Shown here piece after piece: positions 3,674 through 53,470 of a DNA stretch of 64,000 bases. The position numbers and the translations under genes were made by a program. Position 1 is the stretch's first letter, and every line of letters begins with the position of its first letter. The stretch comes from Spinacia oleracea. Its lineage: Eukaryota > Streptophyta > Magnoliopsida > Caryophyllales > Amaranthaceae. The notes below the pieces were generated by a model. The model was not told where the DNA came from. It worked only from the letters and a program-made list of their open reading frames with translations, and searched no databases. Where the stretch lies: positions 109,340,141 to 109,404,140 of the forward strand of contig NC_079487.1 in NCBI RefSeq assembly GCF_020520425.1. The letters are read 5' to 3'.

Positions 3674-5222
3674 TATCCTCACCGTCAAATTCATGAGGAA
3701 AGAGGATGGCAGAACCGCAGAACTTTCCCCTTCTTTTGTTTGGTCTTATATTTTGGAAGGAGAAAATCTAACTTGCTTAGATATACAAGGTATGTAGCCC
3801 CCTTTTATTGATGTTTGACTTATAGCCTTAAAAATGAATGTAGTTTGATACAGGGTTATCCTTAACGTATGCATGGCTAAGAAAAAGTTCTTGTACGACT
3901 GAGAATTTTTATGTATTTTTGTTGAAAACAATGGGTCGTGGGACAGAGAAAGAAATCATAGTATCTTATTAGTAGATGATGGTTAAATATAACTTCCGAT
4001 CACTGTCATTAGAGATAAATTAACAAATTTTGGTACAGTCTGTTGTTGGTTTGACTCAGGATTTTAGCATCAGAAAATATATATGTTTCCAAGTTGGTTG
4101 GATAATCACTTGGAAGTTTATACAAAGTAGACAGGTTACTAGAAAAATTGGCTATGATAAGTTGTTGCCTCCTCCTTTGTAAGTTGGATATGTGACTTTA
4201 TTTATAAGGAATGAGTATTGTAATACCAAAACTACCAGTAGTTATCGATCATGTGCTGATATGCATTCTTCATCTGAGATGTTGCATGACATTCTGGGTG
4301 TCTGTGGTCCTCATTTGACATCATCGTGATTCTGAGGTTCTGTTAATTCTTCCTTTACATTTCTAATGTAATGTAGCACCAGGGGTAAACCTACATAGCC
4401 AGGGTGGTGAGAATCCGCGTTTTCTTTCTAAAATTTCTAGGTCCGTCACTGATTAGCACCCCATTTCACTATTACATGTAGGCTTTCACTGTATCTGATC
4501 TTTTCTTCTTTGGACATGATTTCTTGAGTTTCTTAGTTAAGGGATATAAATTACGCCCTCTAATCTTTCAATTTCCTGAACTTTTGTGCAGTAGTTCTGC
4601 AAAATACATTGTAGAATGTAATGATATTAGATCAAAGTGTTGAGATTTTTATTTCTGTTTATCTTTCAATAGGTTGTCATACGATGGAGTTTGTTTTTAT
4701 AAATAGAAACGAGTATTACTAATTTGGTATGTATTCCCCTCCTTTCCAGCTGAATGAAAGATGTGAAGTCTGAACTTAATTAAGTTACACTTCAGTTTAC
4801 CGGACCATTATTTGCGGCATTGCAACTGTTTTTTCTGAATGTTTATTTCATTAGTGACTAGTGAGTGACCTCTAAGATGTGAGAATAGAGCATGGAACTG
4901 CATTACTTGAAAAAAGTTGAGAAATTTCATATCTGTAATCATTTTCTGCAGTATTCTTTCATTTCTGTAATAATTTTTCTGCAGTACTCTGCATTACATG
5001 ACTTCTCATGTACAAAGAATTAATCCAATTAATTTGAATCACTCATATTTCTTTACAAACATATTCATCGTAATTTGTACACAAAACTTGTTCATTCTTG
5101 GTTCCTGGATTCATCTTCTTTCCAAAATCAAGTCAGGCACCAGGATGCTTTCATCTATATTAGCCAATCTCAGAGAAGGCAAATCACATAAGCACTAGAT
5201 ATACACCAGGCCCTCTTGCATG
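3674..5222. other. Intergenic, no gene seen
   Basis: AT-rich sequence downstream of the TBL gene. A small hAT-like relic (4380-4451) is listed separately. I see no conserved coding segment; the longest open frames are short and low in content. Confidence 0.6.
4380..4451. mobile_element. 72-bp degenerate hAT MITE of the CAGGGG family
   Basis: It begins CAGGGGTAAACCTAC and ends GGTCCGTCACTG, echoing the ends of the elements at 3231-3665 and 53664-54645. The flanks TGTAGCAC and ATTAGCAC share 6 of 8 positions and may be a decayed 8-bp target duplication. Confidence 0.5.
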
Positions 5223-8200
5223 TTAAGGATAGAAAAGTTTTGCAAATAGTAGTTCATTCCATGTATCTTGCAATCCTGGTAAACACCAGTGGACACAGTC
5301 AGCATAGCTCTTAGGGTCTGCTTGCTGTTCTGGAGTCAGAGGACCCCATTGCTTCTTATAAATTTCTGTGTGTGCATCCTTCCGGTAGCTGGATAATTGG
5401 GTGATGTTAAGAAATGTTACAGGGGCCTTAGATCTGCTAAACTCTTCTCCAATAACTTTCATTATGCTTTTACGAGAATCTGAACCCCAGTATTCAGGAT
5501 CCTCTATCAAAGTTGTTTCGTTATAACAGTTGCCGCCTTCCTCGCCTCCCCAATCTATGCTCCTGCAACAATGAAAAAATGTTTAATACTTCCTTTTTGT
5601 AAGCTACCAAACTGGTAGTTTTTCCTAATAAAGATCACCATGGGCGAGGCCCGGTCGGGTTTCAGGCCAGGCCCACTCTCCGTGATGAGAAGTTCAAAAC
5701 CAGGCCCGCCCCAGGCCTACTGGCTGTCGTGCCTAATTTTACTACATTTAGCGTGCTGGGTTGAGTCATGTTGTGGCTTGTCATGCTTTTTCCAAAAAAA
5801 AATGCGGCCCAGGCCCGGCACGACTTCGTACACGTCACGCTTGCCGCTTTTTTCATGCTCGGGCCGGGCCTGCCTATTTAGTGTCCGGGTGGGTTGGGCC
5901 TCGGCCCGCCCCACAGCCATCTTTAGTACCACTTCTTCCTCTTTTTGATGTTTAGGACCCAAATGATTGCTGTGTTAAATTGGAATTATAGATTTTACTG
6001 CATCCTGTACTACTGTGGGTGACCTATGTGACTGTATTTTATCTTAAACAAATGAAAATTTGAAAAAAAAGAGGAGCTAATTTTACAGGCAACTTACTTT
6101 GCATGAGTAGGTGACATGCTAGTGAAGAAGACTCTGGTTTTCTTTGGGTCCATATTTCTCTCAACCCATTTCAACATGCTCTTCATTCCCATCCGATAAG
6201 CATCCTCAGTGGAGAGCTCTTCAATTTCCTGCACTTCATCTTTGAAAGACCCTTTCCTGAAGGCAGGAAATAGTAAGCTTAGTCAGCAAAAAAGATTGGA
6301 CAGCAACAACAACAACAGAGAAAAGGGACCGGGTTGCGGACATTACAAGATCTTGAACTGAAGACCAGTCATCCACCAGAGGTATGTATTAAACACCACA
6401 ATATCAGCACCTTTCCAGTGTTTTCCATGTGTAGCTATTGATCCCTTGCGAACTACTCTATCTGCTATTCTGTGTACAACAGCATCATCAGAGTTTGACT
6501 CTAGCAGGAAAGGTGCCCAGTAGAATTCAACTGTTGCATTGTAATCCTGTATTTATAACAATTAAAAGCTCATTTTCGTGCTTATAAAATTAAAACTATG
6601 CAGAAATCGAATTTACAGTATGATCTAACCTTTAATCTGAAAACTGTCAATGAAGAGTAAGAGCTTTCCATCACTTTGCCTTGTTCAGGTACAAGTCTGT
6701 GCAGAAGACAGATCATGGAAACATACTGACCCCTGTTCAAGGAATCGCCTACAAACAGCATTCTCTTGCCTCGAAGAGCCTCCAGCATTAAGGTTGCATT
6801 GAATCTGCATGTCAAAGCTTTTGTTCAGTACTCCTATATGCATATCAATTTGCATGAACTGCAAATAATGCATAATTATAATGGAGGTATGCATCACACT
6901 TGATAACTGATCCCCTAGCTAGCCTTTTGAGGTTAATTTGGATGAATAAAATCCTGGAAATATTTATCGATTATGGAGTACCTTTTTTACCTTCAAAGTT
7001 TTGCTCTTTCATCAGTTTCATGATGTGAATGAGGATTTAATTTGAAGCATACAACATACACAATGTATGATGGAGGATTTGAAGATTGAGTCTAAATTAA
7101 TTATTATCGAACACAAATCACATTTGTTATATGTGAAAAGGATCTAGCATATCATCACAACAACAAAAATGAGGTGTTTTGCGTGCAACACTCAGAAATA
7201 TACCCTCGTAGTGCATTTTCTACCAAAAACATCTTGTATAAAGCCTGTTTGACAATTGGTCGTTGGTTGTTTACTTGGCTTGTTTGACTGACTCTTTGTA
7301 TTGGCTTTTTAAGTTTGTTATTTGATTGTATACTTTCTAAAAATGTGTTTGGTAAAGTTGGTTCTAGCTGTTTCATACAAAATGTAATTAGTAAATTGAA
7401 AAGCCAACAACTAATGTAAAAAAGATACTCTTACTAGCTTTTGAGTTTTGGCGAAAAAGCTGCTTTTTAGCCAAGGAAAAAAAGTCACTTACCAAACATG
7501 TATATTGGTTGTTTGATCACTTTGAAAAAGCCCAAAAAAAAACCTATTACCAAACAGGCCCATAATTTCAAGGCATGTTGAAAATGTCCCTTTGTATCCC
7601 AAAAACTACTTGAAAATGCCCTAAATAGTGGATTATAGGTACATGCATCAGTGCAACACCAACATTAATTTACCAGAGGAAAACCAATCCATATTAGAGT
7701 CGCATTATTTCACATTATAATAAGGATGCTCATGTGCTGATGCTTTATGCTTACACTTTAAAAACATTCCTTACTTTACAGTTAACATTGTCTTTTTTAA
7801 CTCTAGTTTTTTGTTAAGAATTGCACTAATTCCTAATCTAATCTAATCACTTTAATCCCGTCAAACACCACCCTTTAGACAACATTCTCGTTCTCTATAA
7901 AACGCCAGCTGCCTTCCCAACTTCCAATCCAAACACAAAACATTCACTTTTATAATACATCTTTAGGCAAAAGTGTTGTAATTGTTCGATTTGGATCGGA
8001 ATAACATTCTTTTTAGTGAATTTATTTATAGTCCCTTGATCTGGAACTGATAATAGTCGTGTTGATAGTACATATAGTCATAACACTCAAAAGTCAAAAC
8101 TGATTATGTGGCGATTAAATTCAGACGAAGGAGTACGTACATTATGTCTATCAAGTTGTCAAGGATAAATTGTAAAATTCCCAATAACTATTATTGAATA

Positions 8201-9233
8201 ATCATGACCCTACACCACCTATTACCTATATAAGTGCAAACTCAAGTTTATGAAGATTGTACACCACATATATACATAATCCGTTTTGTCCCTACTTGGC
8301 TAGCTATACTTGTACATTAATCAAGCAAGTAAAGTAACCTGTACGTAGTAGTATACCCTATCTCAGAGAGTGGACATTTTTATTCGACTCACACATTTTT
8401 TTCGTTATAGAATACCAAAATGGGCATACCTAAAATTATCTATATATCGACTCAAAAAAGATACACGAAATACAGAGTATCTCTTTGTAACAGGAATGTC
8501 AACTAAGTTAAATATTACTCTCACCAAAGTTTGCTTATTCAGTATTTATTCTCAGAGTCAAAAATAGGTACGTGTGTGATAAGGTGTATACTGTGTAATG
8601 TAAATGTCAACTGACTTAATTGATAAAATCGCGGTAAGAGAACTTACGAGGGAAGATCACAACCGCGAGGCTGCCAACGCCAGTGTTGGTAGTCCTTATC
8701 TGGACGACCATGTTCTTGACAAGTCAACTGAGGCTGAATGTAAGGGCATTCCCATTCTTCGTACATTGGTTTTCTCTCCATGTCCCGAACCCATTCTCCG
8801 TCGAATATATCACAACTCTCCGCCGTACTCCCCACCGCGAACGGAAGCTTTTTCTCTCTCCTCCCCTTCTTCTTATCCTTCCTCTCAACTGCAACAACCA
8901 CCCAACAAGGGGGAAAAAATCAATTTAGAAATTCTTTAGTTACATGCAAAAACTACACTGAAAGAACAAAAATGAAAACAAGAAGTCAGAGGAGAGAGAT
9001 TTGCGTTTTGACTGACCGAAGTTGGAGTGAAGTTTGGGATTGCGAGGGGAATTATCGAGTGTTTGCGGTTGTTGATGATTGTCGAAGCTTGAGAAAGTGC
9101 AGGCGAAATCCTGGCCGTACAAAATGGCGACGAAGATAATGAAAGCAAGAACGGTGAAGATGAACGGCGTTGATATTCGAGCTTTTCTGACCATCTGATT
9201 TACCGGCGACAATGATGAAAGAGGTGCCTTCAT
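5223..9233 (-). CDS. Trichome birefringence-like (DUF231/PMR5) O-acetyltransferase
   Basis: Six exons (descending: 9233-9017, 8888-8648, 6804-6630, 6546-6347, 6256-6098, 5562-5223) give 443 residues with all phases consistent and GT-AG introns. Residues about 22-40 are one membrane anchor after a short basic N-terminus, as in Golgi type II proteins. The PMR5N segment starts CDIFDGEWV (98-106). The catalytic GDS motif is at 172-174 in [11 protein letters not shown], and the C-terminal DxxH is D419/H422 in DCVHWCLPG. Family members transfer acetyl groups to wall polysaccharides in the Golgi; sequence feel is closest to the TBL3/TBL31/TBL33 xylan O-acetyltransferase group, which is inference. 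Length and motifs indicate an intact gene. Introns 2 and 5 carry MITEs. The start is the first ATG before the anchor. Confidence 0.92.
5634..5935. mobile_element. GC-rich hAT-like MITE in TBL intron 5
   Basis: A block rich in GGCCCGG and GGGCCGGGCC lies in the 535-bp last intron. It is bounded by roughly inverted AAAGATCACCATGGGC and the reverse complement of GCCCCACAGCCATCTTT. Such GGCAATGGGGCGGG-like ends are common in plant hAT MITEs. The overlapping open frames on both strands are composition artefacts. It lies inside the intron and leaves both splice sites intact. Confidence 0.5.
7242..7562. mobile_element. hAT-like MITE in TBL intron 2
   Basis: AGCCTGTTTGACAAT at 7242 and ATTACCAAACAGGCC ending near 7560 are imperfect inverted ends of the well-known GGGCCTGTTTGG type. 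The interior is AT-rich with alternating TTGACT and CAAA stretches and no ORF. No target duplication was clear. It accounts for part of the unusually long 1843-bp intron 2. The rest (7563-8647) is AT-rich and featureless to me. Confidence 0.5.
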
Positions 9234-21474: not shown

Positions 21475-21719
21475 TATATTGTTTGATATTAAATGAAAAT
21501 GCAACAATTGGAAAAAAATATTATTTTATTGCTGGTACTGTAGTGTCCAAGAGGATAAAAAAAATGTATTTTTAATCACTCTTTCCTCAAAATAAAAGCA
21601 TAAAAGAGTTAATTTAAAATATATTCAAAATAGCAAATTGGTTTCGTAGATGAAGAAAAAATTTGAAGGTTGATGTTTTTATTTTCTTGGAGTAAATAAA
21701 GTCACTAGTAGAAAAAACC

Positions 21720-21935
21720 CCTGTTGCAGCCCCCTTGTTGCAGCGTACATGTATAAATACGCTTCAACAACCAGTCGGTCAACGCGGGTCAAACCCTTTA
21801 AAGGGTTATCGCAGCGTACATTTTAGTTGTTCGCAGCAAATGTGTTTGTTGCAGCGTACAAAATAAAAGCCCGCAGCAACAACCCGACTTTATTGCAGCG
21901 TACATGTTATTGCCCGCTGCAACAAGTCCGCGTTT
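21720..21935. repeat. CACTA 1 left subterminal repeats
   Basis: Repeated TTGCAGCG(T)ACA units in direct and inverted order (GTACGCTGCAACA on the other strand) lie within about 230 bp of the left end. Such clusters bind the TNPA-like protein in known CACTA elements; that role here is inferred. Confidence 0.75.
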
Positions 21936-22436
21936 CAAAATTTTTTACTTTCCTAGGTTGCAACAAACCGCGCTCAAACGAGCGGGCTCAAACGTACGTT
22001 GTTCCTTCTCTTATAGCTCCAAGCTTTTTCCCTTAAACAAATATCCAAGAAGCCGTCGAACTCAGCCCTGCGTCGCCGTCGAACTCAGCCCTGCGTCGCC
22101 GTCGAACCCAAGCGTTGCTCAGCCCTGCGTCGCTGTCTTCGCCGGTGTGTGGTGTTCTCGCCTCATCTCCCCCATCCCGTTCAATTCTCGCGCAGCCTGT
22201 CACTGAAAGATATATTCTTGGTCGGCCGGGGTTTCAGCATCTCCCCGTCGCGTCGTGGTTCCGGTGGTTGCTCGGCGTCGTGGTTCCGGTGGTTTCTGTA
22301 TGGTGTGTTCAATTTCTATTTTCGTTTTTTATTTTCGTTTTCAGATTAGGGTTCAATTTTAGTTTTTGATTTTCGTTTTCAGATTAGGGTTCAATTTTAG
22401 GTTTATGATTGACAAAATCACATAGTTTTGAGTTCG

Positions 22437-23086
22437 ATGATTTATGGGTTTCTTAGGGTTTGTTCAAATGATGTTTATGGGGATAAAGTCATAGCAACCA
22501 GTGCAGTGTTTGGCACAGAAATCTGGCCGGCTGCTGAGTATGGTAGAACCATGTATACCATCCGTCAGAGGATTGGTCCTCTCTTCATGAAAATGCAGAA
22601 GCGCTTTGGAAACCTTGATTATGCTGGTGAGTTGTCTGAGAAGGATATTATTCGCGCTGAAAGGAATTCTGGTTTTATCAGTGACCGTGTCAGAGAGATT
22701 CAAGTAAGCCAACCCAACCTCTCACCACACTACTTAGTACCTATATCATCTATTCATCTGTAAACTTATATTACAGTTTTTATTTCTTTGCAGCGCCAAA
22801 ATTACCAGAGAAAGATGGAGACTAAAGAAAGTAGGGAAAAGGACCTCCGGGAAGGCCTCCAACTTTACAAGTATTTATCAATCCATTCTTCTGTTTGCTG
22901 TTACTCAGCTGTTTAATTATGTTATTTCATCTTCTTTAATTTTCTTGTTTTTTATAACATCAAAGGAGCGGAAAATACGAGGAAGCACGAGAAAAGTTTG
23001 AATCTGTTCTAGGTTCTAGGCCTACTCCAAATGAAGCTTCAGTGGCTAGTTACAATGTTTCTTGTTGCTATTCTAAGCTTAATCAG
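22437..23086 (+). pseudogene. Captured MET1-like thylakoid TPR protein fragment
   Basis: Three exons (22437-22703, 22794-22870, 22966-23086) with GT-AG introns encode a stretch that includes VIATSAVFGTEIWPAAEYG, then NSGFISDRVREIQ, a charged helix, and a TPR segment SGKYEEAREKFESVLGSRPT ending CCYSKLNQ. I recognise this as the central/C-terminal part of MET1 (PDZ-TPR protein of photosystem II assembly in thylakoids), recalled from Arabidopsis. The N-terminal transit peptide and PDZ part and the last TPRs are missing. An in-frame ATG at 22437 comes from CACTA-side sequence. Introns are retained, so the capture was from genomic DNA. It joins the VDAC piece in the same phase. Confidence 0.75.
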
Positions 23087-23451
23087 GTATTACTCGTCTC
23101 CCTCAATCCTCTTCTTCCTCAGTTATTTTCTACTTTGGTTATTATGGGATATCCAATTATGAGTACCCTGGTTGATGTGCTGACAATTATTTTTGTAACA
23201 CAATCGAGCCTGAAATAATTAATACCCTGTATTCCGTGGGTTTAGTCGAGATAACAATGTAATTTGATTAGCAACTGCATTGTGTCCTGAAGATTTAGGG
23301 TTGTGAGTCACGATTAAAGAAATTAAGTTAAGATGTATGTTTGCATTAAAGGTTGTTGTTGACTTCTTAATTTATATGTAGAGAATAAGTCAATCAGACA
23401 TGTATGGCATGATTAATTTTCTAAAGTTAATGTAAACTTGTTTTCTTGCAG

Positions 23452-24161
23452 GCTATCACTTCTACTGGGACAAAGAAGGGCGAGTTGTTTTTGGCTGATG
23501 TCAGCACTAAGTTGACAAACAAGAATATTACCACCGATGTGAAAGTTGATACCAACTCCAATGTGAGTTTGTTTATTTGTATTACTACGAATTGATTCTA
23601 TGATACATTACGGTTTCATTGGTTTATAGGTTTTTATAATTGGTAATTGTGTAAAATTTGGTGACAGATAGCATTGCTTTCTATGAACATCTTGTTTTAC
23701 ATAATTGGAATCTATTGTAATCTGATTCCAACTTCTTTGCTGTTTCCGTCTTCCGCTCCTAGCTTTTCACCACCATTACGTTGATGAACCTGCCCCTGGC
23801 TTGAAGGCTATTTTTAGTTTCCGTGTTCCTGATCAGAGATCTGGCAAGGTACCATACAATTATCTTTCTAGTATTTTCTTACCTAAAGAGGCATGGTTCA
23901 AAATACTACGGGATAATGGTTCTAATTTGTGGAGTATAAATTATGTTAACAGGTTGAGCTTCAGTATTTGCATGAGTATGCTGGCATCAGCACAAGCCTT
24001 GGTTTGACAGCAAACCCCATTGTCAACTTTTCTGGTGTTTTTGGAAACAGTACTCTTGCTTTGGGTACTGACCTCTCATTTGACACTGCTTCTGGAAACT
24101 TCACCAAATGCAATGCTGGGCTGAGCTTTACTAATGATGATCTCATTGCATCTGTGAATGT
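23452..24161 (+). pseudogene. Captured VDAC (mitochondrial porin) fragment
   Basis: Three exons (23452-23562, 23763-23848, 23953-24161) encode AITSTGTKKGELFLADVSTK, then the LFTTIT...RVPDQRSGK exon and [20 protein letters not shown] onward to NDDLIASVN. This is the central barrel of plant VDAC, the outer mitochondrial membrane anion channel. One base is missing after ATTACG near 23780: the frame shifts and meets TGA at 23802-23804, so the porin part is broken. The N-terminal start and final strands are absent. Retained introns show a DNA-level capture. The first VDAC exon is in phase 0 with the end of the MET1 exon. Confidence 0.88.
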
Positions 24162-24479
24162 GTAAGTAGTTTTTGTTATACTAATCAGCAGATTATCACT
24201 TTGGTATATCCATGTGCAACATTTAATTGCTGTTCAGAAATTAAAGAAAGAGAATCACTCCTATTCTCATTTAACAATTTTCATATTGGTAATTCATATT
24301 ATCTCTATATGCGTGTATCCTAGAAATAAATTTGGATTCTGCTTGTCGAAAACTACTTAATAATGTTCTAATCTTTCACCTTTGGCTGTTGTTGAGTGTA
24401 TCATTTGAAAGCTGGATACTGGATATACATTTCTGATACACTTGTGATTTTGTTTACTTTTGGGTACTGCAGGAACGAC

Positions 24480-26870
24480 AAACTGGACATCTTTATACTC
24501 ATTTCAATCTATTTATTCACATTTAAGGCTTATTGGGTCGTTATAGGTCATATTAAGGCTAAAATGAAGCATTTTCCCTCCCAACTTTGAACTAAAGAAC
24601 CTAAGGACTCATTTTATACTTATTACATGTTTAATATGAATAGTTTTAACTTTCTAACACTCATTCCAATCTACTTATGCAAATTTAAGGCTTGTTTGGT
24701 CGTTATAGGTCATATTAGGCTAAAATGAGGCTTTTTTGCTCCCAAATATAAAATAAAGAACCTTAGGACTCATTTTAAACATATTAAATGTTTTATATGA
24801 TTAGTTTTAACTTTACAAGACTTAATCCAATCTATTTATGCACATTCATGACTTCTTTGGCCGTTATAGGTCATATTTAGGCTAAAATGACATTTTCGCT
24901 CCCAACTTTGATCTAACGAACTTAAAAACTAATTTCAAACTTATTACATGATTCATATGATTATTTTTAACTTTCTAGGACTCATTCCAATCCATTTATG
25001 CACATTTAAGGCTCATTGTGTCGTTATAGGTCATATTTAGGCTAAAATGACATTTTCGCTCCCAACTTTGAACTTAAGAACCTAATGACTCATTTTAAAC
25101 TTATTATATGATAAATATGCTTAGTTTTAAGTTTCTAAGACTTATTATAATCTATTTATGCACATTTAATGCTTGTTTTATCGTTATAGGTCATATTTAG
25201 GATAAAATAAGGCATTTTCGATCCCAACTTTAAAATAAAGAACCTAAGGACTTATTTTAAACATATTACATGATTAATATGCTTAGTTTTAAGTTTCTAA
25301 GACTTAATCTAACTACTTATACACATTTAAGGCTTGTTTGGTCGTTATAGGACATATTTAGGCTAAAATGACATTTTCGCTCCCAACTATGAACCAAAGA
25401 ACCTAAGGACTCATTTTAAACTTACTAAATGTTTTATATGCTTATTTTTAACTTTCTAGGACTCATTCCAATCCATTTATGCACATTTAAGGCTCATTGT
25501 GTCGTTATAGGTCATATTTAGGCTAAAATGACATTTTCGCTCCCAACTATGAACCAAAGAACCTAAGGACTCATTTTAAACTTACTAAATGTTTTATATG
25601 CTTATTTTTAACTTTCTAGGACTCATTCCAATCCATTTATGCACATTTAAGGCTCATTGTGTCGTTATAGGTCATATTTAGGCTAAAATGACATTTTCGC
25701 TCCCAACTTTGAACTTAAGAACCTAATGACTCATTTTAAACTTATTATATGATAAATATGCTTAGTTTTAAGTTTCTAAGACTTATTCTAATCTACTTAT
25801 ACCCATTTAATGCTTGTTTGATAGTTATAGGTCATATTTAGGCTAAAATGAGGCATTTTCGCTCCTAACTTTAAAATAAAGAACCTAAGCACTCATTTTA
25901 AACTTAATACATGTTTAATATGCATAATTTTAACTTTATAAGACTCGTTCCAATCTATTTATGCACCTTTAAGGCTCATTAGGTCGTTGTAGGTCATATT
26001 TAGGCTAAAATGACATTTTCGCTCCCAACTATGAACTAAAGAACCTAAGGACTCATTTTAAACCTACTAAATGTTTTATATTCTAGTTTTAACTTTCTAG
26101 GACTTATTCCAATCCATTTATGCACATTTAAGGCTCATTGTGTCGTTATAGGTCATATTTAGGCTAAAATGACATTTTCGCTCCCAACTTTGAACTTAAG
26201 AACCTAATGACTCATTTTAAACTTATTATATGATAAATATGCTTAGTTTAAGTTTCTAAGACTTATTCTAATCTGTTTATGCACATTTAATGCTTGTTTG
26301 ATAGTTATAGGTCATATTTAGGCTAAAATGAGGCATTTTCGCTCCTAACTTTAAAATAAAGAACCTAAGCACGCATTTTAAACTTAATACATGTTTAATA
26401 TGCATAATTTTAACTTTATACGACAAGTTCCAATCCATTTATGCATATTTAAGGCTTATTGTGTCGTTTTAGGTCATATTTAGGCTAAAATGACATTTTC
26501 GCTCCCAACTTTGAACTTAAGAACCTAAGGACTCATTTTTAAATTATTATATGATTAATAAGCTTAGTTTTGAGTTTCTAGGACTTATTCTAATCTACTT
26601 ATACCCATTTAATGCTTGTTTGATCGTTATAGGTCATATCTAGGCTAAAATAAGGCATTTTCGCTCCCAACTTTAAAATAAAGAACCTAAGGACTCATTT
26701 AAAACTTATTACATGTTTAATATGCATAATTTTAACGATCTAAGACTCGTTCCAATCTATTTATGCACCTATAGGCTCATTGGGTCGTTATAGGTCATAT
26801 TTAGGCTAAAATGACATTTTCGCTCCTAACTTTGAACTAAAGAACCTAAGGACTCATTTTAGACTATTAG
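24480..26870 (+). repeat. Array of ~15 repeats of ~160 bp in CACTA copy 1
   Basis: The marker GGCTAAAATGACATTTTCGC recurs about every 160 bp, at about 24565, 24725, 24890, 25051, 25213, 25372, 25532, 25692, 25853, 26013, 26172, 26333, 26493, 26656 and 26814. The units starting at 25372 and 25532 are almost identical, showing recent duplication. There is no ORF. The same family is in copy 2, inverted. Confidence 0.93.
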
Positions 26871-26958
26871 GACATTGTCATTAGTTTCTTGAATGTTAAA
26901 ATGTGATATTTAATTTGTATTTAATCTAATGTTTAATTTAAATTTCTGTTTTTGTAAA

Positions 26959-27081
26959 GGTCTACACTCCGAGGATTGCGCCTTATGCGAGGAATTTGAT
27001 GTGGTTCGTGAGCAATGGGCTAAGTTTTTTACCAACAAGTATTTATTATTGGCTTTAGCGCGCTTGATCGAGTTGGTTTAG
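26959..27081 (+). other. 41-codon exon-like frame conserved in both CACTA copies
   Basis: After a possible acceptor (TTTTTGTAAAG) the frame reads GLHSEDCALCEEFDVVREQW and ends ALARLIELV then TAG. The same frame with one change (N to S) lies in copy 2 at 28882-29004. It is Cys/Glu-rich at the start and hydrophobic at the end. I do not recognise it. It could be the last exon of a captured gene or of a degenerate transposon protein. Confidence 0.4.
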
Positions 27082-27319
27082 TTGTTATAGAATAAATTTT
27101 ATATTAAAATGTATGTTTATGTTGAAATTGGAACATATATTTAAATGTAATATGTGCACTTTGGTTTTGGGATATATAGTATACAAAACTCCAGTTGTTG
27201 TTTTTATATTTGTTTTACAGGTTGCGTTATTCTATTATTGTTTTGACAGGTTTCTATATTTGGTGCAAGGCACTCTACGTATCCCTAAACAAAATTAGAA
27301 TTTTCCCCCCAAAAGTGCT

Positions 27320-27645
27320 TTTTTGCAGCGTACATATATGTTGTACGCTGCAACAAGGGAAAAAAATTTCGCAAAAATTCAGACTTGTTGCAGCGTACAA
27401 ATAAATGTACGCTGCAAAAAGTTGAGTCTGTTGCAGCGGGCTTTTATATGTACGCTGCAACAAGTCCAAAATTTTGCCAATTTTTTGGCACTTGTTGCAG
27501 CGTACATATAAAAGCCCGCTGCAACAAATCACTTTTTGCAGCGAACTTGTACGCTGCAACAAGTTCAGACTTGTTGCAGGCCCCCCAGTTGCAGCATACG
27601 ATGTACGCTGCAACAGGGGTCTAAAAGCCCGCTGCAATAAGGGTT
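27320..27645. repeat. CACTA 1 right subterminal repeats
   Basis: At least five pairs of TTGCAGCGTACAT(A) and GTACGCTGCAACAAG face each other, giving short hairpins with AT-rich loops. Several small open frames here on both strands are only translations of this motif. Confidence 0.8.
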
Positions 27646-27661
27646 TTTTCTACTAGTGAGT

Positions 27662-28303
27662 AAATATTTATTTTTCTTTCTCCTAAAATTTTGGGTCAAG
27701 TGACATGATCTGATTAGAGCATCTCAATGACAAGCTAATTGTCATACTAGCTTGTCATGTCACATAAAATTTTAAGCTAATTAACTTACTGGTTAGTTTA
27801 TATTTCAATGGTAAACTAATTTACTAAACTAGATCGATTGATATTTAAATAGGTCCACTTTTATATTAACCATTTGATTTTAATTTTATTTTCAATATTA
27901 CTTAAATTTCTATTGGGTTACTTTTTTCGACGCAAATTTGCTTGGCCAAGATAATTTATAAAATATTATTTTGAAAAATATATATACTTCGTATTAGGAA
28001 GAAGCCAACAATATATTATATACTATCATTTGTTTTTATATAATAGAAATAAAATAGATAGGGTCAAAGTGAATTATTTGAATAGTGCAAAAAGTCAAAA
28101 CGGTGAGAGTATTTTGGGATGGGAGAATACATATATAAGAGTAACTTTTAAGCATTTAAAATTAACTTTTACTCATGTAACAATATTTATTGTACTAAAT
28201 CAGAATTTGTGCTAACCTTATACATGTTCAAATATATTTGTTTACTATCAAGTAAATTTTATCCCATTAAACCTTTTAATTATTTCTCTCTCCTACCCAT
28301 ATA
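27662..28303. other. Spacer between the two CACTA elements
   Basis: AT-rich. 28060-28130 (AAAAAGTCAAAACGGTGAGAG...) looks like the right half of a Stowaway similar to 57799-58053. 27717-27760 has AGAGCATCTCAATGACAAGC, reminiscent of a Tourist-type end. No gene is seen. Confidence 0.5.
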
Positions 28304-28881
28304 CACTAGTAGAAAAAATCCTTATTGCAGCGGGCTTTTAGACCCCTGTTGCAGCGTACATCGTATGCTGCAACTGGGGGGCCTGCAACAAGTCTGAACT
28401 TGTTGCAGCGTACAATGTTCGCTGCTAAAAGGGGTTTTTTGCAGCGTACATATGTATGTACGCTGCAACAAGTGCCAAAAAATTGGCAAAAATTTGGACT
28501 TGTTGCAGCGTACATATATATGTACGCTGCAAAAGACTCAACTTTTTGCAGCGTACATTTATTTGTACGCTGCAACAAGTCTGGAATTTTGCGAAATTTT
28601 TTTCCCTTGTTGCAGCGTACAATATATATGTACGCTGCAACAAAGCACTTTTGGCGGGAAAATTCTAATTTTGTTTAGGGATACCTAGAGTGCCTTGCAC
28701 CAAATATAGAAACCTGTCAAAACAATAATAGAATAACGCAACCTGTATAACAAATATAAAAACAACAACTGGAGTTTTGTATACTATATATCCCAAAACC
28801 AAAGTGCACATATTACATTTAAATATATGTTCCAATTTCAACATAAACATACATTTTAATATAAAATTTATTCTATAACAA

Positions 28882-29004
28882 CTAAACCAACTCGATCAAG
28901 CGCGCTAAAGCCAATAATAAATACTTGCTGGTAAAAAACTTAGCCCATTGCTCACGAACCACATCAAATTCCTCGCATAAGGCGCAATCCTCGGAGTGTA
29001 GACC
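28882..29004 (-). other. 41-codon exon-like frame, CACTA copy 2
   Basis: Same length and reading as 26959-27081 (SEDCALCEEFDVVREQW...), stop TAG at 28884-28882, one visible substitution. Its retention in both copies may reflect shared recent ancestry rather than selection. Confidence 0.4.
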
Positions 29005-29104
29005 TTTACAAAAACAGAAATTTAAATTAAACATTAGATTAAATACAAATTAAATATCACATTTTAACATTCAAGAAACTAATGACAATGTCCTAATAGT
29101 CTAA

Positions 29105-32100
29105 AATGAGTCCTTAGGTTCTTTAGTTCAAAGTTGGGAGCGAAAATGTCATTTTAGCCTAAATATGACCTATAACGACCCAATGAGCCTATAGGTGCAT
29201 AAATAGATTGGAACGAGTCTTAGATCGTTAAAATTATGCATATTAAACATGTCATAAGTTTTAAATGAGTCCTTAGGTTCTTTATTTTAAAGTTGGGAGC
29301 GAAAATGCCTTATTTTAGCCTAGATATGACCTATAACGATCAAACAAGCATTAAATGGGTATAAGTAGATTAGAATAAGTCCTAGAAACTCAAAACTAAG
29401 CTTATTAATCATATAATAATTTAAAAATGAGTCCTTAGGTTCTTAAGTTCAAAGTTGGGAGCGAAAATGTCATTTTAGCCTAAATATGACCTAAAACGAT
29501 ACAATGAGCCTTAAATGGGCATAAATGGATTGGAATGAGTCCTAGAAAGTTAAAACTAGAATATAAAACATTTAGTAGGTTTAAAATGAGTCCTTAGGTT
29601 CTTTAGTTCATAGTTGGGAGCGAAAATGTCATTTTAGCCTAAATATGACCTACAACGACCTAATGAGCCTTAAAGGTGCATAAATAGATTGGAACGAGTC
29701 TTATAAAGTTTAACTTATGCATATTAAACATGTATTAAGTTTAAAATGAGTGCTTAGGTTCTTTATTTTAAAGTTAGGAGCGAAAATGCCTCATTTTAGC
29801 CTAAATATGACCTATAACTATCAAACAAGCATTAAATGTGCATAAATAGATTAGAATATGTCTTAGAAACTTAAAACTAAGCATATTAATCATATAATAA
29901 GTTTAAAATGAGTCATTAGGTTCTTAAGTTCAAAGTTGGGAGCGAAAATGGCACTTTAGCCTAAATATGACCTATAACGACACAATGAGCCTTAAATATG
30001 CATAAATGGATTGGAATGAGTTCTAGAAATTCAAAACTAAGCATATAAAACATTTAGTAAGTTTAAAATGAGTCATTAGGTTCTTTAGTTCATAGTTTGG
30101 AGCGAAAATGTCATTTTAGCCTAAATATGTCCTATAATGACCAAACAAGCCTTAAATGTGTATAAGTAGTTAGAATAAGTCTTAGAAACTTAAAACTAAG
30201 CATATTAATCATGTAATAAGTTTAAAATGAGTCCTTAGGTTCTTTGGTTCAAAGTTAGGAGCGCAAATGCCTCATTTTAGCCTAAATATGACCTATAACG
30301 ATAAAACAAACATTAAATGTGCATAAATAGATTAGAATAAGTCTTAGAAACTTAAAACTAAGCATATTTATCATATAATAAGTTTAAAATGAGTCATTAG
30401 ATTCTTAAGTTCAAAGTTGGGAGCGAAAATGTCATTTTAGCCTAAATATGACCTATAACGACACAATGAGCCTTAAATGTGCATAAATGGATTGGAATGA
30501 GTCCTAGAAAGTTAAAAATAAGCATATAAAACATTTAGTAAGTTTAAAATGAGTCCTTAGGTTCTTTGGTTCATAGTTGGGAGCGAAAATGTCATTTTAG
30601 CCTAAATATGTCCTATAACGACCAAACAAGCCTTAAATGTGTATAAGTAGTTAGAATAAGTCTTAGAAACTTAAAAATAAGCATATTAAACATGTAATAA
30701 GTTTAAAATAAGTCCTTAGGTTCTTTATTTTAAAGTTGGGAGCGAAAATGCCTTATTTTATCCTAAATATGACCTATAACGATAAAACAAGCATTAAATG
30801 TGCATAAATAGATTAGAATAAGTCTTAGAAACTTAAAACTAAGCATATTTATCATATAATAAGTTTAAAATGAGTCATTAGGTTCTTAAGTTCAAAGTTG
30901 GGAGCGAAAATGTCATTTTAGCCTAAATATGACCTACAACGACCTAATGAGCCTTAAAGGTGCATAAATAGATTGGAACGAATCTTATAAAGTTTAACTT
31001 ATGCATATTAAACATGTATTAAGTTTAAAATGAGTGCTTAGGTTCTTTATTTTAAAGTTAGGAGCGAAAATGCCTCATTTTAGCCTAAATATGACCTATA
31101 ACTATCAAACAAGCATTAAATGTGCATAAATAGATTAGAATAAGTCTTAGAAACTTAAAACTAAGCATATTTATCATATAATAAGTTTAAAATGAGTCAT
31201 TAGGTTCTTAAGTTCAAAGTTGGGAGCGAAAATGTCATTTTAGCCTAAATATGACCTACAACGACCTAATGAGCCTTAAAGGTGCATAAATAGATTGGAA
31301 CGAATCTTATAAAGTTTAACTTATGCATATTAAACATGTATTAAGTTTAAAATGAGTGCTTAGGTTCTTTATTTTAAAGTTAGGAGCGAAAATGCCTCAT
31401 TTTAGCCTAAATATGACCTATAACTATCAAACAAGCATTAAATGTGCATAAATAGATTAGAATAAGTCTTAGAAACTTAAAACTAAGCATATTAATCATA
31501 TAATAAGTTTAAAATGAGTCATTAGGTTCTTAAGTTCAAAGTTGGGAGCGAAAATGGCACTTTAGCCTAAATATGACCTATAACGACACAATGAGCCTTA
31601 AATATGCATAAATGGATTGGAATGAGTTCTAGAAAGTCAAAACTAAGCATATAAAACATTTAGTAAGTTTAAAATGAGTCCTTAGGTTCTTTAGTTCATA
31701 GTTTGGAGCGAAAATGTCATTTTAGCCTAAATATGTCCTATAACGACCAAACAAGCCTTAAATGTGTATAAGTAGTTAGAATAAGTCTTAGAAACTTAAA
31801 ACTAAGCATATTAATCATGTAATAAGTTTAAAATGAGTCCTTAGGTTCTTTAGTTCAAAGTTAGGAGCGCAAATGCCTCATTTTAGCCTAAATATGACCT
31901 ATAACGATAAAACAAACATTAAATGTGCATAAATAGATTAGAATAAGTCTTAGAAACTTAAAACTAAGCATATTTATCATATAATAAGTTTAAAATGAGT
32001 CATTAGGTTCTTAAGTTCAAAGTTGGGAGCGAAAATGTCATTTTAGCCTAAATATGACCTATAACGACACAATGAGCCTTAAATGTGCATAAATGGATTG

Positions 32101-32790
32101 GAATGAGTCCTAGAAAGTTAAAAATAAGCATATAAAACATTTAGTAAGTTTAAAATGAGTCCTTAGGTTCTTTGGTTCATAGTTGGGAGCGAAAATGTCA
32201 TTTTAGCCTAAATATGTCCTATAACGACCAAACAAGCCTTAAATGTGTATAAGTAGTTAGAATAAGTCTTAGAAACTTAAAAATAAGCATATTAAACATG
32301 TAATAAGTTTAAAATAAGTCCTTAGGTTCTTTATTTTAAAGTTGGGAGCGAAAATGCCTTATTTTATCCTAAATATGACCTATAACGATAAAACAAGCAT
32401 TAAATGTGCATAAATAGATTAGAATAAGTCTTAGAAACTTGAAACTAAGCATATTTATCATATAATAAGTTTAAAATGAGTCATTAGGTTCTTAAGTTCA
32501 AAGTTGGGAGCGAAAATGTCATTTTAGCCTAAATATGACCTATAACGACACAATGTGCCTTAAATGTGCATAAATGGATTGGAATGAGTCCTAGAAAGTT
32601 AAAAATAAGTATATAAAACATTTAGTAAGTTTAAAATGAGTCCTTAGGTTCTTTGGTTCTTAGTTGGGAGCGAAAATGTCATTTTAGCCTAAATATGTCC
32701 TATAACGACCAAACAAGCCTTAAATGTGTATAAGTAGTTAGAATAAGTCTTAGAAACTTAAAACTAAGCATATTAAACATGTAATAAGTT
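29105..32790 (-). repeat. Array of ~23 repeats of ~160 bp in CACTA copy 2
   Basis: The marker GGGAGCGAAAATG recurs about every 160 bp from 29138 to 32667. The array contains a higher-order duplication: the unusual variant AAAATGGCACTTTAGCC occurs at 29945 and again at 31551, 1606 bp apart (ten units), and neighbouring variants repeat in the same order. A two-unit block is also doubled at about 30930 and 31250. It is longer than the copy 1 array, so the array has expanded or contracted since the copies split. Confidence 0.93.
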
Positions 32791-32829
32791 TAAAATTAAG
32801 CATTTTAGCATATTAACTAAGCATATCCT

Positions 32830-34390
32830 GTTAGGTGAATACCAGGCATTAGTTATTAATGAATATCAGCAGTCGAGTTATAGGATTTGTTATGCCTAAT
32901 CCAAGAAAAAAAAACCAGAATTTTATTTAGAAAAACATCTAAAAGTTGAATAAGATTGGCAGAAAATTAAGAAGTTGAGAAATTTAGAGGAAAACCTTAC
33001 ATCAGATAGGCTGAAACGAGATGAAGTAGTAACCAATTACAAGCACAACCCAAGATCCAAATACAAACTTAAAGCACTCAAAATTGTATTAAAAAGCCCC
33101 ATTATTAATCTTAGTCTTTTTTTTAATCAAATCAAGCAAAATCGGATGTAAAAAGGTGAAAATTCTAAAAAATGAAGCAAAACTCTTAATAAAGTACGAA
33201 CTACGAAGTGACTTTAACTCAGCCCCACTAATGAGTTTATTTTTCAAATCAACTAAATGTCTAGAAACACATAAAACTAAAAAGATGCAAAGTATAGCCG
33301 GCTAGCTCCTTGGAGTTCCTTAAAGCACTAGATAGAACGAGGATTCAAAAGATGAAACTCTCCTATAGCTCTTTAAATATTTATTGAATAAAACCATTTC
33401 AACACACTTTTTTGCTCTTTCTCAACATGGATCAAAATGAACTCTTCAGTGAATCACAATCATGTAAAAGAAGATACTAATTACTACTATAAACAAGAGA
33501 TACTAATTGTGCTTAAAATCCCAAGAAATTCCTCAAGGCCAACTTGTTACCTGAATTAACGTTAGGATAGCAGCAACATCATATATGGGACTCCATTGGT
33601 TTTATAGAATGTCAAGACAGATCTTCCATCTGCATAAACTAATAAATTCCCACCCAAAAAAAACACACATATAGATAAGGTTAGAACAGGAAATTGGCAG
33701 GTTGATTCACTTATATAAACCACAGGTAAAGACAACCAAGTACATGCAGAACAAAGTCAAAAGCAGCTAAAGAACCAAGTTACAGATGGATTTACTCCTT
33801 TCGGATCAAGAAATCAGCTTCTGTATCATGGTGATTTTTTAAGACACGTGAGCATCAGCAAGTTGTTTATTTGGATAAGAAGAATGGGAAAATTGCAGCA
33901 AAAACCTTAAAATACATAAATTTTAGTAAGCTGAAGCCAACAAACTAAAATAAGAAATAAGTATGAAGTTCTCAATCATCACATACTCCATGCAAGATCA
34001 TCTTGAAACAATCATCATAAAACAAGCTAGTCGAAGTACAATGAAGCAACACAATGCAGGTATTTTTATAGGTATTAGGTTACTTCCATGAATTATGATA
34101 TAATCACATAAGGGGGTCAATTGCTAGCTAATACACAACGGGAATGCACCAATATCTCACAGATCCACTAGTAGAAAAAACTATTGATTTGCACTTACTG
34201 TACTATTGATTTCAACTTTCAAAAGAGGAAAAGAGAAATTTTATGAAGATAATTAGATATATCAATACCTTATGCAATTGTTGAAATTCGAACAAGCACG
34301 ATGATAGATTATGCTGGCAGTACGATCATCGCCCCTCTCTTCAACCATATGCGTATATACCCATCTTCACAATTAACTGCAAATTAAAGA
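32830..34390. other. Copy-specific middle of CACTA copy 2
   Basis: AT-rich sequence unrelated to the MET1/VDAC segment of copy 1. At 34166 a second CACTAGTAGAAAAAACT terminus occurs in plus orientation without a partner, possibly a relic of another CACTA end. On the minus strand, 34364-34269 has an exon-like open stretch (THMVEERGDDRTASIIYH) ending at AAG|GTATTG. No family is recognised. A low-complexity AAAATCAAAACGA run lies at 34400-34530. Confidence 0.4.
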
Positions 34391-35410
34391 AATAATTGAA
34401 AAACAGCCAAAAAAATCAAAATAAAAACGAAAATCAAAACGAAAATCAAAAACGAAAACCAAAACGAAAATCAAAACGAAAATCAAAAACGAAAATCAAA
34501 AACAATAATCAAAACGAAAATCAAAAACTAAAATTGAACCCTAATCTGAAAACGAAAATAAAAAACGAAAATAAAAATTGAACACACCATACCGAAACCA
34601 CCGGAACCACGACGCCGAGCAACCACCGGAACCACGACGCGACGGGGAGATGCTGAACCCCCGGCCGACCAAGAATATATCTTTCAGTGACAGGCCGCGC
34701 GAGAATTGAACGGGATAGGGGAGATGAGGCGAGAACACCACACACCGGCGAAGACAGCGACGCAGGGCTGAGCAACGCTTGGGTTCGACGGCGACACAGG
34801 GCTGAGTTCGACGGCGACGCAGGGCTGAGTTCGACGGCTGAGTTCGACGGCTTGCTTGGATATTTGTTTAAGGGAAAAAGCTTGGAGCTAGCAGAGAAGG
34901 AACAACGTACGTTTGAGCCCGCTCGTTTGAGCGCGGTTTGTTGCAACCTAGGAAAGTAAAAGTTTTTGAAACGCGGACTTGTTGCAGCGGGCAATAACAT
35001 GTACGCTGCAATAAAGTCGGGTTGTTGCTGCGGGCTTTTATTTTGTACGCTGCAACAAACACATTTGCTGCAAACAACTAAAATGTACGTTGCGATAACC
35101 CTTTAAAGGGTTTGACCCGCGTTGACCGACTGGTTGTTGAAGCGTATTTATACATGTACGCTGCAACAAGGGGGCTGCAACAGGGGTTTTTTCTACTATA
35201 CGTTATATTCTATTGAAATCTACGACATTTTTTCATTTTTTTTGTTAAGGACGGAAGGAATATTACGGAGCATATGTTAATCGGGAAATTTCGTAGTTTT
35301 AGCTTCCTCTTTGGGTTTATTCTGTTCACCTTAAAAAAATAAGTTTCAGTTCCAATAAGTTCTGATAAGTATCAATAATTTTCAGTAAGTTCAGATAAGT
35401 TCCAATGAGT

Positions 35411-50879: not shown

Positions 50880-53249
50880 CTTGACCCCAAGGATCAAAAG
50901 TAGGATATAGACTCTCAATATCAATTGCATCTTCCGGGGTAGAATTTGACCATTGTACAAGCCACTGTACTACAACATGGTTATACTTCTTTTGTCAATC
51001 ACCGATATGGGATATTTTGAGACATTAGGGTCAGGAATAAGAAGGGAGGAAGGGTCAATTGTTGGAGGTACAAAACCATGGTGCCTCTTAAGTTGGGAGA
51101 CATGAAAGGTGGGATGGACTTTTGATGAGCTAGGAAGTTGCAGAGTGTATGCCACCTTCCCTAGCTTCTTAATTATCAAATACGCCCCAAAATACTTAGC
51201 TGCAAGTTTCGGGTTTGGTCTGTGTTCTACTGACTGTTGTCTGTAAGGTTGACCCAATCTCCCACTTCAAACTCCCTTTCACTCCTTTGTCTATCTGCTT
51301 GCTGCTTCATTCTATTTTGTGCCTTAGCTAAGTGCTATTTCAACATAGCTATAGTGACTTCCCTTTGCTGTAAGCTTCTGTCCACACTCTCTACTGCACT
51401 AGATCCAGCTAAGTAAGGAATATGATAAGGAGGTGGTTGTCCATATAACACTTCATAAGGGGTCATTCTGATTGCTGAATGAAAATTAGCGTTGTACCAA
51501 AACTCGGCCAAGGATATCCATCTTGCCCATTCCTGTGGTGTGTCACTGCACATACACCTGAGATATGATTCCAAGCACCTATTCAACACCTGCGATTGCC
51601 CATCAGTTTGAGCACTTCTTGAGGTTGGCATGCAAGGAATGAGATCTCATGATCTCCAAAACCACTTGTAAATGGTTAAAGTGTTCTTCCCAAGTGGGAC
51701 TGTACACTAGAATATCATCAAAAGAAAATTGTACCTTGTAGTTCATCGAGCAGTTCCTCTATTACAGGTATAGGGAATTTATCTTTGACAGTAGCTTTAT
51801 TGAGTGCTCTGTAATCTACACACATCCTCCACCCCCATCTTTTATCTTCACCAACACCACAGGTGCTGCAAATGAACTATTACTATCTATGATAAAGCCT
51901 TGATCAGTCAGTTCTTGTACTAACTCAATCAGTCTTTTGTGTAGATGGGTACCTGTATGGTCTAATATTGATTGCCTTCTTTCAGTGGAATTTGGTGATC
52001 AAACTTTTCTCTTGCAGGCGGTAACCCTTCTATTATCGTCAATACATTAGAGAAGCTTTCAAGAAATGTCTTGATATCAGGATGTACCCCTTCATCATCA
52101 TGTGCTTGTGCTGACCTCAACTGAGGATACCAATCTGTGGTGGGTTGTACTAGCTGCAACCTGGACAATTCACCTTCTTTTTGTATTAATTTTGTGAGTT
52201 GATTGGACTGGATACCTTTCAATGTCTTGTTGAACTTCACCTTCTTCCCACCTTGCTTGAATTCCATGGTCAGGTTCTTAAAATCCCATAAAATAGGCCC
52301 CAAGGTGGAAAACCACTGAATTCCCATCACCACATCACTCCCACTCAAGGGTAGAAGCAACAGGTCAACCACAAAAGTATACCCCTGCATTCTCCATTCG
52401 AAGTTCTTAATCATAGCATCACATCCGAGATGTCCTCCATTAACAACCTTCACCCACATAGGTGGTACACTCTCTACTTTACAATTCATTTTCAATGGCG
52501 TGGGAGTGTCGATAAAATTATGGGTGCTTCCACTGTCAAGAAGCATGTGCAGTGGCTTCTTCCCATGTTGTCCCATCATTCTCATGGTATGAAAGGTACA
52601 ATTCCCATTCAATGCATGTAATGAGATTTGTGCACATAGAACCTCGGCTTGATCCCCTACCTCTCCTTTTGTTTCTACCTCTTCATCATCTTCTACTTCA
52701 ATGTGATACAGTTGAGGTCTCTTTCCTTTACACATGTGTCCCAACTCAAACTTCTCATCACACCAAAAACATAGGCCCTTAGCTCTCTTATCACTCATTT
52801 CTGCAGCTGTTAGTGTTTTTTCTGTTGGTGTTTGGTACGGTTGTTCCCCTCCAATTTGAAGTAGAACTAATATTGGTGAAAAATGGTTTTGGTATAGGTA
52901 AAAGAGGTGGTAAGGGTTTAGATTGTGTTTTGGGTTTTCTGGCTTTGTGTGTTGCATCCTGTAGCTTAGCTAGGCAGTGTGTCTGCTGTAAAGTGGTGGG
53001 TGTAAACATTCTAACAGATAGTTGTATTTCATACTCCAAGCCGCCCAGATAACAACTTAATAAGTGTTCCTGAGACAGATTCAACCTACTTGCAAGAGCA
53101 TCGAATGCATCATGACATTCAAGTACGGACTCCGAATGCACAAGGCAGGGGACACATGTCCTCTCCTCCAAGCTCAACCAAACATATTGTAGGGATTTTA
53201 GGTCATTCCTTGGATAACCTAGAACTATATATATAACTCCAGCTCCCAA
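50880..53249 (-). pseudogene. Internally deleted Ty3/Gypsy gag-pol
   Basis: Minus strand, 5' to 3': Gag remnant (ending HCLAKLQDATHKARK, 53249-52795), zinc knuckle CFWCDEKFELGHMC (about 52775-52730), aspartic protease LLDSGSTHNFID (about 52540), then reverse-transcriptase start with [17 protein letters not shown] (about 51835). RT is cut short: after a DDILVYSPTWEEHFNHLQV-like piece near 51690 the sequence jumps to integrase SAQTDGQSQVLNRCLE (51610). Integrase C-terminal [30 protein letters not shown] and a chromodomain-like QWLVQW...PEDA tail follow to about 50880. RNase H and most of integrase are lost, with several frameshifts. It is a dead copy, truncated at its 5' side near 53220. Confidence 0.88.
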
Positions 53250-53470
53250 GGGACAGGGACATTCAATTACACAACAATCACCAAATATTTTATTGTCTAC
53301 CTTCTCTCTACTTTCTCTTTCTAAAAACCCTTACTTACTTAAGCATCGAAGGGAAGGAATATTCTTGTTTTGCAGGTCGGACCAGAGATCGTGCCGTGAC
53401 AGACCGGATACCTCCTTGTCATCAGCTCATTGGAAAAACCTCACAATATCTATATGTACCATAAACAACA
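53225..53470 (+). mobile_element. LTR fragment of another Gypsy element
   Basis: CTTTCTAAAAACCCTTACTTACTTAAGCATCG...TTTTGCAGGTCGGACCAGAGATCG resembles the R/U5 part of plant Gypsy LTRs (CTTAAGCATCGGAGGG type), in plus orientation. It abuts the truncated 5' side of the minus-strand Gypsy. Evidence is by resemblance only. Confidence 0.4.

Follow-up and report, generated by a model that had tools for sequence, protein, structure and literature searches.

Tgm-Express1, a CACTA element of soybean (5.7 kb), holds fragments of five unrelated host genes together with their introns; its transcripts come from the host gene F3H that harbours the element, as shown by RT-PCR, and cDNAs show the captured fragments spliced as exons and joined into chimeras (PMC1947982, accessible parts). 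Pack-TYPE work, as far as its accessible text goes, describes elements that combine DNA of several loci, in maize above all among Pack-CACTA, and proposes that neighbouring insertions fuse (PMC8903248); the maize and rice cases presented are either small elements that have fused or short insertions within an element (PMC8903248, PMC13317346). The Tpn1 family of Ipomoea nil is non-autonomous, has 3-bp TSDs and internal parts replaced by host genic sequence, yields chimeric transcripts and is a known mutagen with phenotypes (PMC5105172, in its accessible sections). Captured gene fragments and tandem arrays are likewise found in CACTA elements of Chenopodium, whose species are related to spinach, but there the fragments are short (an 80-bp AP2 piece and two Neprosin pieces), the elements have transposase-associated domains, and the accessible part of the report describes no multi-exon fusion (PMC8978399).

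Here we describe element A, a non-autonomous CACTA element that carries exons of a chloroplast-protein gene, MET1, fused to exons of a mitochondrial porin gene, VDAC. It lies in the window, by which we mean the whole 64,000-nucleotide stretch of spinach DNA that was analysed (C1:109340141-109404140). The carrier is a Pack-CACTA with serial capture. Very probably it is a recently amplified one that took up its cargo in two steps, its chimeric product being a by-product without selected function.

With the Pack-CACTA and Pack-TYPE elements, as the accessible texts present them, element A shares conserved ends, internal host coding DNA, several loci per element and recent mobilisation (PMC8903248, PMC13317346), and it fits the Pack-TYPE class of multi-locus elements. 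Fragments of unrelated host genes with introns are what it has in common with Tgm-Express1; unlike that element, as described in the accessible parts of its report, it has one capture inside an intron of the other, the order of events is visible from sister elements, and it is known here from DNA alone (PMC1947982). The Tpn1 family, which resembles it in being non-autonomous and in its replaced internal parts, has other ends and another host (PMC5105172, same sections). Unlike the Pack-TYPE cases set out in the accessible texts, one spinach genome shows both parents, both microhomology junctions and alternative fusions on a VDAC core. Together with VDAC-only intermediates and the amplified product, this makes stepwise exon shuffling by a DNA transposon visible within one genome, with parallel fusions built on the same core. 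A partial literature search found no earlier report of gene capture by CACTA elements in spinach, which is not proof of absence.

Element A occupies positions 21703-27658 of the window on the plus strand (5956 bp), as delimited by its TIRs, its TSD and the copies elsewhere. The TIRs are of the CACTA type: the left one (21703-21730, plus strand) starts with CACTAGTAG, the right one lies at 27631-27658 on the minus strand, and the TIR search gave 0 and 2 mismatches for the two ends. At its 5' side the element begins with CACTAGTAGAAAAAACCCC; its 3' end is the inverse of this with 2 mismatches, and reading of the flanks gives the TSD AGT on both sides (21700-21702 and 27659-27661). Short subterminal repeats with GTTGCAGCGTAC-like units (families D10/D13/D15) are found at both ends. 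From left to right the element consists of its left end, 80 bp of VDAC intron 2, the MET1 piece, the remaining VDAC piece, a tandem array with a 160-bp period (24497-26869, plus strand, 14.8 copies by repeat search) and its right end. The ORF list for 21703-27658 shows no transposase frame, its longest stop-to-stop frame having 134 aa. The cargo is host coding DNA with parents elsewhere in the genome (the MET1 gene L021 and the VDAC gene L026), and it has moved along with the element, as seen from 13 places, TSDs and identical copies. A single larger element spanning 21703-35201 was also considered and is ruled out: inner TIRs and the TSD AGT close element A at 27658.

The full fused stretch is present, near-identical, at 13 genomic places (14 of 14 candidates scored in one search; another search, with 40 of 56 candidates scored, gave the same 13). 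As expected, a comparison with a plasmid collection gave no match. Both CACTA ends (at most 2 mismatches) accompany all 13 copies, and a perfect 3-bp TSD is seen in 12 of them, with differing flanks; L020 is without a matching TSD. An assembly error as the source of the MET1/VDAC join is ruled out, its probability being close to nil: the same junctions recur in 13 places with different flanks, all of which would have to share one artefact. The junction of the two genes is genuine. Per copy, the fused stretch differs from the window at 0-5 sites, and six of the 13 copies, the window among them, are letter-identical across all 5956 bp. Under assumed substitution rates, one substitution among six copies of this length is expected about every 2-6 thousand years. 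The identity suggests very recent movement, so insertions may differ between cultivars, and recent movement makes CACTA gene capture directly testable. The right end by itself (26880-27330) matches at least 40 places (40 of 40 scored; 1350 first-look candidates).

Both parental genes were located in the same genome. A search with the MET1 piece found it at 14 places (14 of 14 candidates scored), namely the 13 fusion elements and one intact gene, L021, with the match at C6:101169080-101169844. This gene has five exons (borders set by eye) and an open frame of 361 aa, and we take it to be MET1 from its resemblance to Arabidopsis At1g55480. Matches to the VDAC piece are found at 35 places: the 13 fusion elements, four with the full piece without MET1, and one intact gene; two of the remaining matches are exons of a 70-74% paralogue and the others are partial. 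The intact gene, L026 (C1:124714715-124723246), encodes a 276-aa porin (Pfam Porin_3, 296 bits), and no CACTA ends were found in the 8.5 kb examined there. The reading frames of both genes are intact. Captured MET1 differs from L021 by five substitutions in 753 bp (two of them in exons) and two small indels, and the captured VDAC exons differ from their parent by one substitution and one deletion. Relative to the captured piece, intron 3 of L021 is longer by two short stretches, of 5 and 7 bp (at window positions 23115 and 23153).

The fused cargo, all of it on the plus strand, is made up of three captured blocks. The first (22402-22481) is the 5' piece of VDAC intron 2, identical to L026 1466-1545 in 80 of 80 bases; the second (22479-23231) is the MET1 piece with the end of exon 1, exons 2 and 3 and part of intron 3 (97.8% to L021); the third (23228-24493) picks up the remainder of VDAC intron 2 and reaches 21 nt into exon 6 (two blocks matching L026 at 95-96%). 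Between 22437 and 23804 there are three MET1-like and two VDAC exons in one orientation. By reading of splice sites, the predicted first coding exon (22437-22703) combines VDAC intron sequence with the MET1 exon 1 remnant; MET1 exon 2 (22794-22870), MET1 exon 3 (22966-23086), VDAC exon 3 (23452-23562) and VDAC exon 4 (23763-23848) follow from splice sites and comparison with the parental genes. The gt dinucleotides stand after 22703, 22870, 23086 and 23562, and ag before 22794, 22966, 23452 and 23763. The intron between the two genes (23087-23451) is itself chimeric, with its donor from MET1 intron 3 and its acceptor from VDAC intron 2.

Phase 0 is shared by the two sides of the junction: MET1 exon 3 closes with SKLNQ and VDAC exon 3 opens with AITSTG, each in the phase that it has in the parental gene. 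Joining the exons in silico gives an ORF of 205 codons from the ATG at 22437 to a TGA at 23802-23804, which follows a one-base deletion near 23779 in VDAC exon 4; VDAC exon 5 (23953-24161, from exon reading) is out of frame past this deletion. The first-pass annotation had proposed that a CACTA element captured pieces of both genes with their introns, that the exon junction is in frame, and that a chimera of about 205 residues ends at a TGA created by a deletion in VDAC; with both parents in hand, all of this holds. Its view that the two genes were placed next to each other in the same orientation is right for the orientation but not for the adjacency: the MET1 exons sit inside the captured VDAC intron 2, of which about 400 bp has been replaced. 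Nor does the ATG come from element sequence, as had been thought. The stretch 22402-22481 equals L026 1466-1545 base for base, so the ATG is VDAC intron sequence, and the same intron stretch is present in eight elements compared.

The predicted protein holds little of either parent. It begins at parental MET1 residue 157, inside MET1 exon 1, and thus lacks the MET1 N-terminus and most of a weak PDZ match (residues 121-161); its VDAC part is limited to exon 3 plus six codons from exon 4. A Pfam search with the 205-aa frame gave two matches: part of a eukaryotic porin domain (E 2e-6, 27.7 bits with the cut-off at 28.4) and, below cut-off, a weak TPR (E 0.004).

Sister elements allow the captures to be ordered. 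Among the elements read, L022, L023 and part of L029 are VDAC-only, with MET1 absent. The exon-4 deletion is found in 13/13 fusion copies and in 7/7 MET1-less elements that keep the site (L022-L025 and L029-L031; L027 and L028 are without the site and stand outside this count), and it is absent from the parent. Because VDAC-only elements exist and share this deletion with the fusion copies, VDAC was captured before MET1. A stop codon younger than the fusion is ruled out, the frameshift being already present in MET1-less elements. The stretch of VDAC intron 2 that MET1 replaced is retained in L022 (396 bp, compared with 406 bp in the gene), and the window's VDAC piece differs from that of L022 by five substitutions. 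Among the VDAC carriers compared, substitutions do not resolve which VDAC-only element was the recipient. Microhomology at the MET1 junctions amounts to 3 bp on the left and 4 bp on the right (a random junction would show 3 bp or more in 6% of cases and 4 bp or more in 2%); sequences assembled from L022 and the MET1 gene reproduce the window exactly at both junctions. A CACTA element first captured VDAC, the piece beginning in intron 2 and stopping at the start of exon 6, and one base of exon 4 was lost from it. In one such element MET1 sequence, 753 bp long in the window, later took the place of about 400 bp within VDAC intron 2. The MET1 sequence may have been brought in through microhomology-mediated break repair or through a fusion between neighbouring elements.

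The VDAC core has also received other neighbours. In L030 (C4:107701600, with a twin at C5:87936186) exons of another TPR gene (L030 1-1045) precede VDAC exon 3; by our own reading the last TPR exon ends in phase 0, giving an in-frame TPR-gene::VDAC combination, and the junction shows 4 bp of microhomology (at least 4 bp is expected in 2.4%). The TPR piece occurs at 22 places with 99-100% identity, two of them joined to VDAC. As L032 carries the TPR piece with a CACTAGTAGAAAAAACC end, and with subterminal sequence that is 88% similar, yet without the VDAC join, L030 is a hybrid of two CACTA lineages. The region C6:145270591-145271635 holds the entire TPR stretch of L030, with no VDAC match there. 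In L031 a different exon lies upstream of VDAC and ends in phase 1 (own reading), so that it is out of frame. Since besides MET1 one upstream fusion is in frame and one is not, the phase matching looks like chance. Downstream, VDAC exon 4 is followed in L024 and L025 by some 2.2 kb of other sequence containing a 114-aa frame (the L024 peptide gave no Pfam match), and L027 (2280-6270) has armadillo-repeat exons (Pfam Arm) after VDAC exon 3. An LRR-like stretch was also seen by eye after VDAC exon 3 in L027; a Pfam search of the peptide gave no match.

These sisters bear on how MET1 was acquired. Instead of repair within a single element, two neighbouring VDAC-carrying elements flanking MET1 may have fused, as in the neighbour model for Pack-TYPE elements, which in the accessible text predicts new internal DNA between family ends (PMC8903248). 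L030 combines a TPR-gene-carrying CACTA element with a VDAC element, and there are two left-end types: the left ends of L025, L027 and L028 stand apart from those of the fusion, L022 and L023 by 63-71 differences over about 780 bp (a comparison that took in no L024 sequence), although in their VDAC parts L025 and L027 match the window at 99.7%. Both L030 and the two left-end types fit fusion between elements. For MET1, however, both breakpoints lie in one VDAC intron, 396 bp apart in L022, and no VDAC sequence is duplicated, which makes repair in a single element the simpler account. Local break repair suits the MET1 step no less than element fusion does, and we hold acquisition by neighbour fusion to be a tentative alternative, somewhat less probable than not.

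The VDAC piece shows an unexpected contrast between exons and introns. Five captures (window, L017, L022, L023 and L029) share 50 differences from the VDAC gene in 832 intron positions (~6%), against 0 in 427 exon positions, the one-base deletion apart (Fisher p about 1e-9; window 23228-24493 compared with L026 1948-3243). Some of the intron differences adjoin gaps; away from gaps 37-38 per copy remain. Under neutral drift on the capture branch about 13 exon changes would be expected, and no shared one is seen. Capture followed by plain neutral decay thus misfits the VDAC piece, its exons being almost unchanged while its introns diverged. An age of 2-6 My for the VDAC capture, calculated from intron divergence with assumed substitution rates, was withdrawn, as the exons contradict it. 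The simplest account is that the donor was a diverged allele or copy outside this assembly, its exons held by selection until a recent capture; if so, the VDAC gene of the assembly is a close relative of the donor and not the donor itself. Alternatively, the exons were kept similar by another route, such as exon-specific homogenisation. In the MET1 piece exons and introns do not contrast in this way, and the age of its capture is roughly 0.3-0.7 My at most, again with assumed rates.

It might be argued from these patterns that the CACTA lineage is an exon-shuffling platform. A VDAC core with phase-0 splice sites would repeatedly be given new neighbours (in this reading MET1, the second TPR gene, the armadillo-repeat exons and at least two further stretches), the combinations would be multiplied, some in-frame chimeric mRNAs would be made and have effects, and the exons of the cargo rather than its introns would be kept host-like. 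We regard this as improbable.

The first-pass annotation had also seen in the fusion a possible new gene in the making. For the 205-aa MET1::VDAC protein to be made and active in some way, the locus offers natural splice sites with matching phase 0, a frame that is open in 13/13 copies, and VDAC exons that are unusually parent-like; captured exons of a CACTA element are moreover spliced into chimeric mRNAs in soybean, according to the accessible parts of that report (PMC1947982). The open frame, however, reflects youth and not selection: with only 0-5 sites separating copies from the window, they are too alike for intactness to speak of selection. As proof of a gene it is further ruled out by a junction control in VDAC intron 2: of 2001 combinations of junction and frame, 757 would have an open upstream ATG. 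The element also has five ATGs ahead of the one at 22437. Coding changes at 22827, 23060 and 23764 (relative to the parent or between copies) are all non-synonymous by our own reading, though too few for a selection test. The likeness of the VDAC exons could be taken to favour a function, but the shared frameshift argues against selection on the porin piece encoded by the element, and it excludes selection on an element-made VDAC protein as the cause of the likeness of exons 4 and 5. The reduced share of both parents also counts against a function.

The position of the stop points in the same direction. Exon junctions lie 44 and 253 nt 3' of the TGA, and a transcript becomes a target of NMD when an exon junction lies more than 50-55 nt past its stop. 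The second junction is beyond this limit, and the chimeric transcript is a predicted NMD target. With a near-chance frame, copies that are too alike, non-synonymous changes and a stop placed for NMD, the idea of a new gene gains no positive support, and we consider a functional chimeric gene very improbable. On the preferred by-product reading, any transcript of the element would be spliced at the natural sites from MET1 exon 3 to VDAC exon 3, and the outcome would be a truncated protein, its transcript probably subject to NMD, with no selected function.

Close to element A lies a second element of the same family, element B (28304-35201, minus strand), found by repeat and TIR searches. It is inverted relative to element A, from which it is separated by 645 bp, has the left flank ATA, carries its own 160-bp array (29094-32796) and has a cargo unlike that of A at about 32800-34400. 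By eye, its right end is apparently short of the last four bases, with ATA apparently kept. Parts of the two elements form inverted arms of 1142 bp with 97% identity (26405-27546 and 28417-29558, 870 bp between them). Such a pair, in a multi-copy element, could give rise to siRNA by which the family is methylated, with possible effects on the MET1 and VDAC genes as well, the more so as the cargo exons are near-parental (two sites in MET1; one substitution and one deletion in VDAC). The arms, however, contain the array and the right end and not the MET1/VDAC cargo, and both parental reading frames are intact. A role as small-RNA source is therefore doubtful in our view, though better placed than a functional protein.

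Transposase would be supplied in trans by coding CACTA elements of the same genome. Matches to the CACTA transposase domain PF02992 above the cut-off number at least 150 (150 of 150 scored; 1375 first-look candidates), and many of them share a 1092-aa open frame and score. The TIR of element A (at most 2 mismatches) is absent from five PF02992 loci (L033-L037), four of them read over only 3.6 kb. The fifth, L037 (C1:12618000-12627900), contains in its region 4099-8638 a 1092-aa frame with the CACTA transposase domain followed by an array that is ~78% similar to the array of element A and in opposite orientation, with no matching TIR in the 9.9 kb read. If the native gene direction can be told from the orientation of the array, element A would carry its cargo antisense to that direction, judging from this one locus. 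Elsewhere in the window, at 51335-53330, long open frames on the minus strand look by eye like retrotransposon gag-pol.
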